Below are positions 25,756 to 28,834 of a stretch of 64,000 nt of DNA, one piece after another; position 1 is the first letter of the stretch; every line of letters begins with the position of its first letter. A program made the position numbers and the translations under genes. The notes under the pieces were generated by a model. It did no database searches and had not been told where the DNA came from. It saw only the letters and a program-made list of their open reading frames with translations. Where the stretch lies: NCBI GenBank assembly GCA_029260495.1, contig JAJDDD010000009.1, positions 560,266 through 624,265 on the forward strand. The letters are read 5' to 3'. Origin of the DNA: Phycisphaerales bacterium. Its GTDB lineage: Bacteria; Planctomycetota; Phycisphaerae; Phycisphaerales; UBA1924.

Positions 25756-27843
25756 TCAACCATCATCGAGCTTCTCTATCAGCGTCCCTTCATCCCAAAC
25801 CTCCACACCCAGCGCCTGTGCCTTCTCCAGCTTCGATCCCGCCTTCTCCCCAGCGATCAGGATATCCGTCTTCTTCGACACCGATCCCGACACCATCGCG
25901 CCCAAATCACGCAGCCTCTCCGACAGCTCCTCACGCTTGAATCCTTCCAGGGTTCCCGTCAGCACAATCTTCTTCCCATTGAAAAACGAAACCTCACCCG
26001 CTGCCGACGCCATCTCAGAATCCAGCCCAACGCCCTCACCGCCCAGCCCGGCAAACGCTGCCCTGCCGACTTCGCTGTGCAGATAGTCAAACAGCACACG
26101 CGCTCGCACCGGTCCAAACCCTTCGATGCTTTCAATCTCCTCAAGTTTCGCGCGTTTCAGCTCTTCCACATTCCGAAACTGCTTCGCCAGCAACCGAGAG
26201 TTTGCCGATCCAATGTGCCGAATCCCCATCGAGCCCAGCAATCTGCCCATCCCCCGCCCTTTCGCCGCTTCAACCCCCGCAAGCAGGTTCTCAACCTTCT
26301 TCTCTCCCATCCGCTCCAGCGTGAGCAACTCCTCCCGATGATTCTTCAGCCGGAACACATCTGTAAACGATTCCAGCGGAATCGCTGATTCCTCCCGAAT
26401 CTGATCAATCGTCTTTTCGCCCAGCCCGTCGATATCCATCTGCGTGCGTCCAGCGAACCAGATCAGCCGCTCGCGAATCTGCGCCGGACACTCCGGGTTC
26501 ACGCACCGCCGCGCTGTCTCCTGCTCGGATTCAAAATCACCCGCCTCTTCAAGCTCGGATGGTTCAATCTCGACCGGCCCCGCGCACACCGGACATTCGA
26601 CAGGCGCCTTGATCCGCCGCACACCCTTCTTTCGCTCCGCCAGCACTGGCTCAATCACCTGCGGGATAATCTCCCCCGCCTTCTCCACCACCACCACATC
26701 CCCGATGCGAATGTCCTTGCGCCGAATTTCACCGAAGTTGTGCAGCGTCGCATGCTGAACCGTCGTCCCCGCAAGCAGCACCGGCGCCATCACCGCCCGC
26801 GGGGTGATCTTCCCCGTTTTGCCCACCTGCATCTCAACGCGCTCAAGCTTCGTCGTCTTCCGCTCCGCCGGGTATTTGTACGCAATGCACCAACGCGGCG
26901 ACTTGCTCCGCACACCAAGCTCATCCTGCAAATCAAATCGATTGACACGAATCACAACGCCGTCCACCGCAAACGGAAACGTGCTGCGCATGGTGTCAAA
27001 CGCTGCAATCGCCTCGAGCGACTGTTCCTCACTCCGCACAACCTTGAGATGTCCTCCGACCGGAAGCCCAAGCTTGCCAATCCACTCAAGAAATCCGGAA
27101 AAGGTCACGGGCGTTTCTCCGCCGGCAATCTCCCCGCGCCCATGCGGGCTGAAAGCGAGCTTCCGCTTCGCAGTCACCTTCGGATCAAGCTGCTTAAGTG
27201 TTCCAGCGCACGCGTTCCGCGGGTTCATGAATGGCTCATCCCCCGCAGCCTCCCTCTCACGATTAATCCGTTCAAACTCCTTGAGCGGAATATAAACTTC
27301 GCCCCGCACCTCCAACACCTCCGGCGCCGCAGCCTGACTTACATCCAGCGCCAGAGGAATGCTTCGAATCGTGCGCACATTCGCTGTCACATCATCCCCG
27401 CGCTCCCCGTCCCCCCGCGTCACCGCCCGAACAAGCTGCCCCTTCTCATAACGCACGGAAAGCGCCACGCCGTCGATCTTCGGGTCAGCCGTACACTCGA
27501 GCTCGTCATTCTCACCAAACAGCTCGGCCTCACTCGCGCCGAGCAACTTCCGCACCCGCGCAAACCACGCCCGCAAGTCCTCCGCGCTGTAAGTGTTATT
27601 AATGCTCAGCATCGGCGCCGCATGTTCGACCGTTTCAAATCCGGCGACCGGCTCGCCGCCGACTCGGCGGGTCGGGCTGTTGGGGTCGGCGAGCTCGGGG
27701 TGGGCGGCTTCGAGGTCGGCAAGCTCGGCGAGGCGCCGATCGAACTCAGTGTCGGACATAATGGGTTGGGCGTCGGTGAAATAGGCGCGGTTGGCGGCGC
27801 GGAGGCGTTGGCGGAGGTCGGCGATTTTGTCGGCGGGGTCCAT
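25756..27843 (-). CDS. ligA: NAD-dependent DNA ligase
   Basis: LigA seals nicks in replication and repair using NAD. The protein has 695 residues: adenylation domain with the active-site Lys in KIDG (residue about 120), OB fold, zinc finger (CPVC and CVNPECP, near residues 420-460), helix-hairpin-helix region, and C-terminal BRCT (about 610-690, with [15 protein letters not shown]). The ATG at 27843 begins [12 protein letters not shown]. Codon usage changes abruptly inside the gene: about the first 70 codons end mostly in C (GAC CTC CGC GCC), the rest mostly in G or T (GCG GAG GTG CGG AAG). This matches the strand-composition switch described separately. Confidence 0.97.
27600..27660. other. 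GC-skew switch point (candidate replication origin region)
   Basis: Plus-strand composition flips here from C-rich (left, to the window start) to G-rich (right, through at least 50 kb). The flip lies inside ligA. On both sides third codon positions follow the strand, not the gene. No cluster of DnaA boxes was recognised nearby. Confidence 0.45.
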
Positions 27844-27934
27844 GTGGGGTTATGGTATCGGCGTGCGGCGTGCGCCTCATCTACCGGGTTTGTGCGCGGC
27901 GTCTACCTCGCTGGTGCGCGATTTGCGATAGTGT

Positions 27935-28834
27935 GTGCGCACCGTGACGACGCCGAAAGCGCACAACTCTGGTTCATTAGCGCGCATCATCGACGGGCGC
28001 GCGCTTGCTGGCGCCCTGCGGCAGGAGACGAGCGAGCGGGTGAAACAACTCGCTTCGTGCGGCCAATCTGTGCGCCTGGATGCGGTGCTTGCGTGCGGAC
28101 CCCAGAGCGCTGCGGGGGTTTACGCTGAAAATCAGGGTGTGGCGTGCCGGGAGATCGGGATCGAATATAAGCTGCATACTCTTCCTGAGAACGCGGGGTT
28201 TGATGAGATTGCGGGGCAGGTGCTGCTTCTTAATAAGGATGAGGATGTGTCCGCGGTGATGGTGCACATGCCATTGCCGGCGGGGGTGGATCCATACAAA
28301 ATTTATCAGCTGATTGATCCTGAAAAGGATGTTGAGGGGGTGAACCCTTCCAACATTGGCAACGTTGTGTATGGGCGATCGACGTTGGCGCCGTGTACAG
28401 CGTTGGCGGCGCTGGCGATGATTGAAACGACGGGTGTTGAGCTGCGCGGGAAGAAGTGCGTGGTGGTAGGGGCTTCAAATATTGTGGGCAAGCCTATTGC
28501 GGCGCTCCTGATGAAGTATGAAGCGACGGTGGTTTCGTGCAATAAGTTTACCAAGGATTTAGCGAGCGAAACGCGCACGGCGGATGTTTTGGTGTGCGCA
28601 GCGGGGGTGCCGGGGTTGATCACGCGCGACATGGTGCGGGCGGGGGCTGTGGTGATTGATGTTGGCACAACGCGCGTGACGGATGAAGCGGGCGAGACAA
28701 AAACAGTGGGGGATGTTGATTTTGACGCGGTGCGCAGGGTGGCGGGATGGATCAGCCCGGTGCCTGGCGGCGTGGGGCCGATGACGGTGGCGATGCTCTT
28801 AAGGAATGTGGTTGACGCGGCGAGTGGGCGGTAA
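27935..28834 (+). CDS. folD: Bifunctional methylenetetrahydrofolate dehydrogenase/cyclohydrolase
   Basis: FolD interconverts one-carbon folates (methylene-, methenyl- and 10-formyl-THF). This protein of 299 residues has the family signatures: MVHMPLPAGVDPYKIYQLI in the N-terminal domain, CTALAALAMIE, VVVGASNIVGKPIAALLM (NADP-binding, GxSxxxG type), and WISPVPGGVGPMTVAMLLRN at the end. It starts at GTG 27935 or GTG 27944. It is divergent from ligA across a 91-nt gap and is the first plus-strand gene after the skew switch. Confidence 0.95.
   Translation: MRTVTTPKAHNSGSLARIIDGRALAGALRQETSERVKQLASCGQSVRLDAVLACGPQSAAGVYAENQGVACREIGIEYKLHTLPENAGFDEIAGQVLLLNKDEDVSAVMVHMPLPAGVDPYKIYQLIDPEKDVEGVNPSNIGNVVYGRSTLAPCTALAALAMIETTGVELRGKKCVVVGASNIVGKPIAALLMKYEATVVSCNKFTKDLASETRTADVLVCAAGVPGLITRDMVRAGAVVIDVGTTRVTDEAGETKTVGDVDFDAVRRVAGWISPVPGGVGPMTVAMLLRNVVDAASGR

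Follow-up and report, generated by a model that had tools for sequence, protein, structure and literature searches.

A sharp GC-skew switch inside ligA of a Phycisphaerales bacterium as a probable replication origin, one of dozens on its chromosome

The GC skew of a Phycisphaerales chromosome (genome G000) switches abruptly inside ligA, and this jump, at 27.65 kb of the window (the whole 64-kb stretch of DNA that was analysed), probably marks one of dozens of replication origins along the chromosome. Upward jumps of the same polarity numbered 31 in 1.52 of 3.20 Mb, with no one chromosome-wide skew minimum. The jumps, the clusters of one short, often phased motif that mark most of them and a sawtooth of skew carried by genes of both strands together make dozens of sequence-specified origins the best reading. 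Bacterial chromosomes are taught as single-origin; if the reading is true, this bacterium copies its chromosome from many fixed starts, as human cells do.

The G000 assembly holds 3,197,366 bases in 22 contigs and is 96.8% complete. The sequence examined consisted of contigs C9 (all but 265 bases), C10 and C3 (1.11 Mb together), plus C20 (409 kb), a contig without part in the choice of motif and whose jumps were found from skew. The window is C9 positions 560266-624265, and a window coordinate equals the C9 coordinate minus 560,265. The genus is represented by one genome in the searched set. Relatives of its LigA are, by name, Phycisphaerales and other planctomycete MAGs, with an identity of at most 63-64%.

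Within the window, GC skew changed from -0.34 (25-27 kb) to +0.22 (28-30 kb) and +0.33 (30-32 kb). A two-segment likelihood scan placed the change point at 27,665 (27,641-27,673 inside 2 log units; gain 781 over 40 kb); a second scan, of third codon positions and intergenic sites alone, placed it at 27,628 (27,574-27,655). The features of the region, in window coordinates, are:

27,641-27,673, no strand: skew jump, plus strand from C-rich to G-rich, at about codon 60 of ligA (likelihood scans)
27,870-27,964, no strand: five-box GTGCGC/GCGCAC array, running from between ligA and folD into the called start of folD (box scan)
27,206-28,735, no strand: wider GCGCAC/GTGCGC cluster; with 9 sites, 27-28 kb is the densest kilobase of the window (site count)
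25,756-27,843, minus strand: ligA, NAD-dependent DNA ligase, intact, with the jump inside it (frame and NF005932)
27,935-28,834, plus strand: folD, divergent from ligA (gene call and model match)
3,000-27,640, no strand: C-rich arm, where forks would run leftward (skew; 3 plus and 19 minus genes agree)
27,674-58,000, no strand: G-rich arm, falling to about zero by 58-60 kb, where forks would run rightward and then as a mixture (skew)

The original prediction, made from the sequence of the window, had the plus strand C-rich to the left and G-rich to the right of about 27.6 kb; the scans confirmed this. The gene itself is an intact 695-codon frame on the minus strand, matching the LigA model NF005932 at 774 bits. 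A switch in its codon endings was also predicted and is present (43 C-ending and 7 G-ending among codons 1-60; 107 and 335 among codons 61-695), the scan placing it near codon 60 and not near codon 70 as claimed. Third-position skew of the plus strand was -0.42 (3 plus genes) and -0.46 (19 minus genes) left of the flip, and +0.38 (8 plus genes) and +0.54 (12 minus genes) right of it; the bias is tied to the strand and not to gene sense, as had been proposed. The C-to-G direction was taken as that of an origin, and this polarity reading is upheld and probably right. The further point, that the edge of an inversion would have disrupted ligA, likewise holds, the frame being intact, and yidD and rnpA were found at 44,782-45,464, the expected 17 kb from the flip.

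Among the 24 jumps scanned on C9, C10 and C3, that of the ligA region had the highest likelihood gain (376). Measured at four-fold sites its size was 1.31; two C20 jumps match it (1.30 and 1.32), and five further jumps reached at least 0.95. At the 200-kb scale, four-fold skew flanking the flip was only -0.05 and +0.14. What fell was the reading of the flip as the single origin of the chromosome: the 1.52 Mb hold 30 further upward jumps, and both dnaA genes lie on other contigs. Recurrence of the flip at many loci, by inversions, had been named as the outcome that would speak against an origin; the flip does recur, but inversions are not the cause, with 17 steps up versus 1 down at a size of at least 0.3 on C9, C20 and C10, where inversions would give as many sharp falls as rises. 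The observation was correct and larger than it first seemed; the single-origin reading was wrong in scope.

Throughout the 1.52 Mb, on all four contigs, skew formed a sawtooth of abrupt rises and near-straight slow falls, with jumps spaced at a mean of 45 kb and a median of 42 kb (27 domain lengths). Steps of at least 0.18, taken with 6-kb arms, numbered 25 upward and 10 downward on C9, C10 and C3, and 7 upward and 5 downward on C20. At 0.3 or more the ratios of up to down were 9/1 on C9, 6/0 on C20 and 2/0 on C10. Step-size skewness was 1.03, 1.12 and 1.22 on C9, C20 and C10, respectively, against phase-randomised surrogates of the same spectrum (p <=0.0002, 0.0002 and 0.0004 in the same order). 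Genomes shuffled in 5-kb blocks had as many large rises (at least 0.3) as observed and equally many large falls; it is therefore the missing falls that count.

An initial list held 25 jumps on C9, C10 and C3. The gene-phase analysis used 22 of them, without those at C9 88.6, C9 378.6 and C10 190.6 kb. The later list of 24 was without C9 88.6 and 378.6 kb and included C10 190.6 kb and C9 172.8 kb, the last added by eye and the weakest (gain 20). Adding the 7 jumps of C20 gave the working list of 31. Jumps were localised to less than 300 bp at 16 of 24 sites, and 24 of 31 fell inside called genes.

The sawtooth is independent of gene orientation. Plus-strand skew at four-fold sites was +0.41 in plus genes and +0.51 in minus genes just past a jump, and -0.31 and -0.23, respectively, just ahead of the next, values inflated in size because the phase analysis is conditioned on jumps chosen from skew; the surrogate test is free of that. 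Position explained far more of the variance of four-fold-site skew (R2 0.433) than did orientation (R2 0.002) among 701 genes of at least 300 bp, and first and second codon positions behaved in the opposite way, as expected from protein coding. Gene orientation itself was barely biased (521 with, 456 against, p 0.04; tRNAs 13/23), and T-A skew tracked G-C skew weakly (r 0.24).

If fork polarity changes gradually from one origin to the next, a straight fall is expected; it is not expected of a process that dies away over a set distance from each site. Fitted to 27 domains, a straight line left an RSS of 5,621, compared with 21,140 for a flat level and 7,706, 5,903 and 5,627 for exponential decay from both ends at 12, 30 and 200 kb. 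None of the ten decay lengths tried fitted better than the line, and the order of the models was unchanged in the 7 domains longer than 55 kb. The total fall per domain was larger in longer domains (rho -0.58), slope against 1/length was not significant (p 0.21), and a 14-kb domain on C10 had no fall.

The amplitude of the skew was high, 6-kb windows reaching -0.76 and +0.83. Four-fold jumps ranged from 0.32 to 1.32, with a sum of 23.4 over the 1.52 Mb, equivalent to 49 per genome. Assuming that skew is proportional to fork polarity, the size of a jump is the full strand bias multiplied by twice the probability of firing, which implies 24.6 initiations per genome and round at a full bias of 1 and 35 at a bias of 0.7, estimates pushed somewhat upward by choosing jumps at maxima. 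If skew tracks fork polarity, then, initiations number about 25 or more per genome and round.

The main motif from an unbiased hexamer scan at the jumps was GTGCGCAC, counted as GCGCAC. Within 800 bp of 24 jumps it ranked 1st of 2,079 hexamers (147 sites vs 51.8, p 1e-23; background from flanks 2-9 kb from jumps), followed by overlapping words and GCGCGC. All 31 jumps together had 196 sites within 800 bp vs 70.6 expected (sd 11.2; maximum 123 in 5,000 circular shifts), and the held-out C20 had 49 vs 15.2 expected (shift maximum 42). Seven or more sites per 1.6 kb were found near 6 of 7 C20 up-jumps and 0 of 5 C20 down-steps. The enrichment at jumps versus elsewhere was present in coding (3.85 vs 1.39 per kb) and in intergenic sequence (4.74 vs 1.07 per kb). 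Along C20, motif density and step size had a rank correlation of 0.035 and a Pearson correlation of 0.23, the latter above all 2,000 shifts. Dense clusters also occurred at weak or no jumps, at C20 139.3, 201.3 and 215.1 kb (steps of 0.05 to 0.16) and at C9 119.0 kb.

The nonamer TGCGCACAA occurred 207 times in G000 vs 11 for its reversed control; this count was the highest of 163 family genomes, and the ratio was not (G119, 85 to 3). The classical E. coli-type DnaA boxes TTATCCACA and TTTTCCACA, without mismatch, were absent within 600 bp of the 24 jumps. Average GC at jumps was slightly raised (0.61-0.63 vs 0.592 overall), with no average AT-rich dip. A motif model fitted by expectation-maximisation drifted to codon periodicity and was discarded.

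The same hexamer emerged when the jumps were left unused. Among 2,023 hexamers, GCGCAC alone was strongly spaced at helical turns (86 pairs at 20-22, 31-33 or 42-43 bp vs 24.0, p 2e-21), with preferred spacings of 21-22, 32 and 42-43 bp; the next-best hexamer overlaps it (p 2e-4). Phased pairs lay within 1.5 kb of a jump in 40 of 81 cases (null 4.7, maximum 20 in 4,000 shifts), and 18 of 31 jumps had one (null 3.2, maximum 11), leaving 13 without; unphased control pairs near jumps numbered 2 of 17 (null 1.0). Another 37 phased pairs lay over 3 kb from any jump and gave no jump signal (p 0.13). Coding adds a period of three to the distances between boxes (18.3 vs 15.9 at the helical period); counts at 24, 27, 30 and 36 bp, multiples of three that miss the helical phase, remain low. 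Arrays of at least three boxes numbered six in 1.52 Mb, five of them within 1.4 kb of a jump and one 17 kb off. The window holds the sole five-box array, the longest, at 27,870, 27,892, 27,914, 27,935 and 27,959, with 22, 22, 21 and 22 bp between centres. The consensus of phased boxes, TGTGCGCACA, is nearly palindromic, unlike the canonical DnaA box.

DnaA is a candidate initiator at the boxes, a claim to which we give about half, or a little more, of the weight that we give to multiple origins. Two full-length dnaA genes are present, on C3 and C10 and neither on the contig of the window; exactly two DnaA C-terminal domains were counted in 141 of the 163 genomes of the family. Two boxes lie 21 bp apart upstream of the C3 dnaA, between it and the gene behind. 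Domain IV of the C3 protein, which matches the E. coli chain 1j1v_A, retains GGRDHTTV and has SLEEIG where E. coli has SLPEIG. Domain IV showed no contrast by box number in the family, with SLEEIG in 29 of 30 sequences and SLQEIG in 1 of 30. The box ends in CACA, an ending shared with the DnaA-box consensus, given as TTA[T/A]NCACA (PMC10316083). E. coli is described as tolerating whole turns of the helix between boxes but not fractions of a turn (PMC4285127).

Five relatives were sampled at 120-200 kb each (G036, G103, G048, G041 and G042), and something similar to the G000 sawtooth was observed in G036 and, less clearly, in G103. G036, a single-contig genome, had a step skewness of 0.90, a net four-fold skew of -0.24, and 3 steps up and 2 down of at least 0.15. 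In G103 the step skewness was 0.47, genes of the two strands shared a net skew of -0.28, and the strongest jump was at genes orthologous to the C10 dnaA region; with down-steps as many as up-steps (5 down, 4 up, at least 0.18), the sawtooth is less certain there than in G036. The signal was weak in G048 (skewness 0.22) and absent in G041 (0.03) and G042 (-0.16). The net skew in G036 and G103 suggests a dominant origin plus additional sites.

Positions of jumps were not conserved: across 207 reciprocal-best-hit pairs with the five relatives, the correlation of step sizes was significant in none, and sense-strand skew correlated with G041 only (rho 0.41, p 0.003). At 59 ligA loci longer than 12 kb, steps within 1.2 kb of the ligA start did not exceed 0.18 in any planctomycete; the value was 0.33 at an Acholeplasmatales locus (L130). 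Phased pairs were near ligA in 2 of 76 loci. A folD match was found in 33 of the 76 loci of relatives, in 31 of these at most 180 bp upstream and divergent. Judged by this gene order, the divergent ligA-folD pair is an old one, and the flip and array were not seen with it in relatives. For the 7 pooled jumps of G103 and G036, GCGCAC ranked 6th of 1,760 hexamers (33 vs 18, p 0.002), which was non-significant after correction, and none of the five relatives had a helically spaced hexamer comparable to that of G000.

That the window holds the single oriC of the chromosome would suit the highest likelihood gain of the 24 jumps scanned, the longest box array, the right polarity and the proximity of rnpA and yidD. 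The examined half of the genome has 30 other jumps of the same polarity, two of them on C20 equal in size, there is no lasting skew difference at 200 kb, and dnaA is elsewhere; we consider a single oriC here quite unlikely. A single origin whose signal was scattered by many inversions or by misassembly is barely credible. The assembly is in 22 contigs, and aberrant skew has often been traced to assembly or rearrangement (PMC7111523), but sharp falls should then equal sharp rises, whereas the large steps are nearly all upward and the falls gradual, most jumps are inside called genes, and a specific phased motif is found at them. An origin active at one site at a time and moving among many sites over evolution, with skew as the time average, would likewise yield many upward jumps at initiator-box clusters. 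Each jump would then be only about 2/N of the full bias, and the observed jumps would need more than complete bias; this case assumes skew proportional to fork polarity, and it leaves a moving origin very unlikely.

Two further alternatives retain the box arrays as causes. A strand-specific process other than replication that starts from them (programmed nicking, strand resection, R-loops or long divergent transcription) would put jumps at protein-binding arrays without extra origins. Against transcription, gene orientation explains only 0.2% of the variance; a straight line outdoes decay over fixed lengths of 5-30 kb, in the domains longer than 55 kb as well; and strand resection from a break, with C-to-T damage, should give the opposite sign. 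We regard such a process as unlikely. Many origins may instead exist whose GTGCGCAC boxes are occupied by a different factor, such as a boundary or regulatory protein, that favours initiation nearby without involvement of DnaA. The box is near-palindromic, TTATCCACA is missing at the 24 jumps, and DnaA-independent multiple origins are described for cyanobacteria (PMC7198777); on the other side, the CACA end is that of DnaA boxes, phased arrays suit an oligomerising initiator, and paired boxes stand upstream of a dnaA gene. Another factor at the boxes is a real possibility, though a doubtful one.

Returning to the reading of many origins marked by boxes, the proposed order of events is as follows: bidirectional forks would start at clusters of GTGCGCAC boxes, which are often separated by two, three or four turns of the helix, an arrangement that would let an initiator oligomerise on one face of the DNA. 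On each flank of an origin the lagging-template strand would lose C over evolutionary time, producing the abrupt C-to-G switch at the origin. Forks from neighbouring origins would merge at variable places, and the share of rightward forks, and skew with it, would fall near-linearly to the next origin. The sequence itself shows the flip, a straight-falling sawtooth that ignores gene strand, and motif clusters with helical spacing; to read skew as a record of fork polarity, the boxes as binding sites of an initiator and one of the two DnaA proteins as that initiator is our inference, the role of DnaA at about even odds. In its full form the proposal is of a chromosome copied from about 60 fixed origins, some 25 or more firing per round, at phased GTGCGCAC boxes through divergent DnaA use (one paralogue), with milder forms in the family beside a dominant origin; our confidence and our doubt in this whole are evenly balanced. 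At several jumps the sites can be named to about 100 bp, with a motif and a spacing rule, which makes the question directly testable, and the family could reveal how a one-origin chromosome gains many origins.

No report of such a pattern in planctomycetes, or of sawtooth skew in bacteria, was found among open-licence PubMed Central papers. A classical oriC shares with these sites the clustered boxes, the CACA end and the helical-turn spacing; here the sites number dozens per genome, lie away from dnaA, have the core GTGCGCAC in place of TTA[T/A]NCACA and lack an average AT-rich dip. Gao (2015) listed double origins in bacteria and called the matter open (PMC4403523); the evidence there, a skew switch with a box cluster, is of the same kind, whereas those cases have two sites per chromosome and E. 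coli-type boxes. Multiple origins were also suggested by Xia for a few bacteria from irregular skews (PMC3269012). Archaea, according to the same source, have few origins, three in Sulfolobus, and several skew minima per chromosome (PMC3269012). Several minima on one chromosome are the common feature; the differences are about 31 jumps in half a genome here, and bacterial DnaA in place of archaeal initiators.

In Synechocystis 6803, Nostoc 7120 and dnaA-less cyanobacteria, replication is described as starting from several origins at undefined sites, with irregular skew, DnaA being dispensable or absent (PMC7198777). Several start sites on a bacterial chromosome, reported there, are suggested by skew here; the regular sawtooth, the sequence-marked jumps and the two dnaA genes of G000 set it apart. 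The closest likeness in shape is to the N-domains of human and other mammalian DNA, where abrupt upward jumps border linearly falling skew that is read as a gradient of fork polarity, and where the proportionality of skew to fork polarity was derived for human DNA (PMC3320577). Both have abrupt upward jumps and linear falls regardless of gene strand; here the setting is a bacterium, the domains average 45 kb against megabases, roughly a hundredfold difference, and the jumps are tied to a short motif.

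The kilobases at the two ends of the window contain GCGCAC/GTGCGC sites, the putative initiator sites that cluster at many of the abrupt upward skew changes (jumps), with eight in 63,000-64,000 and four in 1-1,000. At the right end, C9 624.0 kb is 4.4 kb away from the jump at C9 628.5 kb, and at the left end, C9 560.0 kb lies close to a small skew rise. Contig C9 has only one sharp downward skew step (-0.45). It is found at 554.4 kb, outside the window by 5.9 kb on its left side, and close to genes for tRNA-Ser (554,381) and a selenocysteine tRNA (557,133). This step could mark the edge of an inversion, an insertion, or a fixed termination site. 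On contig C20, skew is flat and GCGCAC sites are very few over positions 1-50,000, which differ in both respects from the remainder of the contig and are possibly acquired DNA.

Three genes of the genome under study were located as follows:

Window 37,270-38,124: ScpA (SMC_ScpA), at a distance of 10 kb from the window's jump and within its G-rich arm
C10, locus L002 (16,906-20,376): dnaA, full-length
C3 1,245-2,849: dnaA, full-length

The two dnaA genes are mutually divergent, and their presence as a pair is a family-wide trait. In G103, a sampled relative, the strongest jump (contig C2, ~245 kb) is located at orthologues of the C10 dnaA region. Five ligA loci of relatives (L077, L080, L085, L095, and L101) exhibited strong one-sided skew (~0.3) across many kilobases, which could represent either long domains or ordinary replichore skew.
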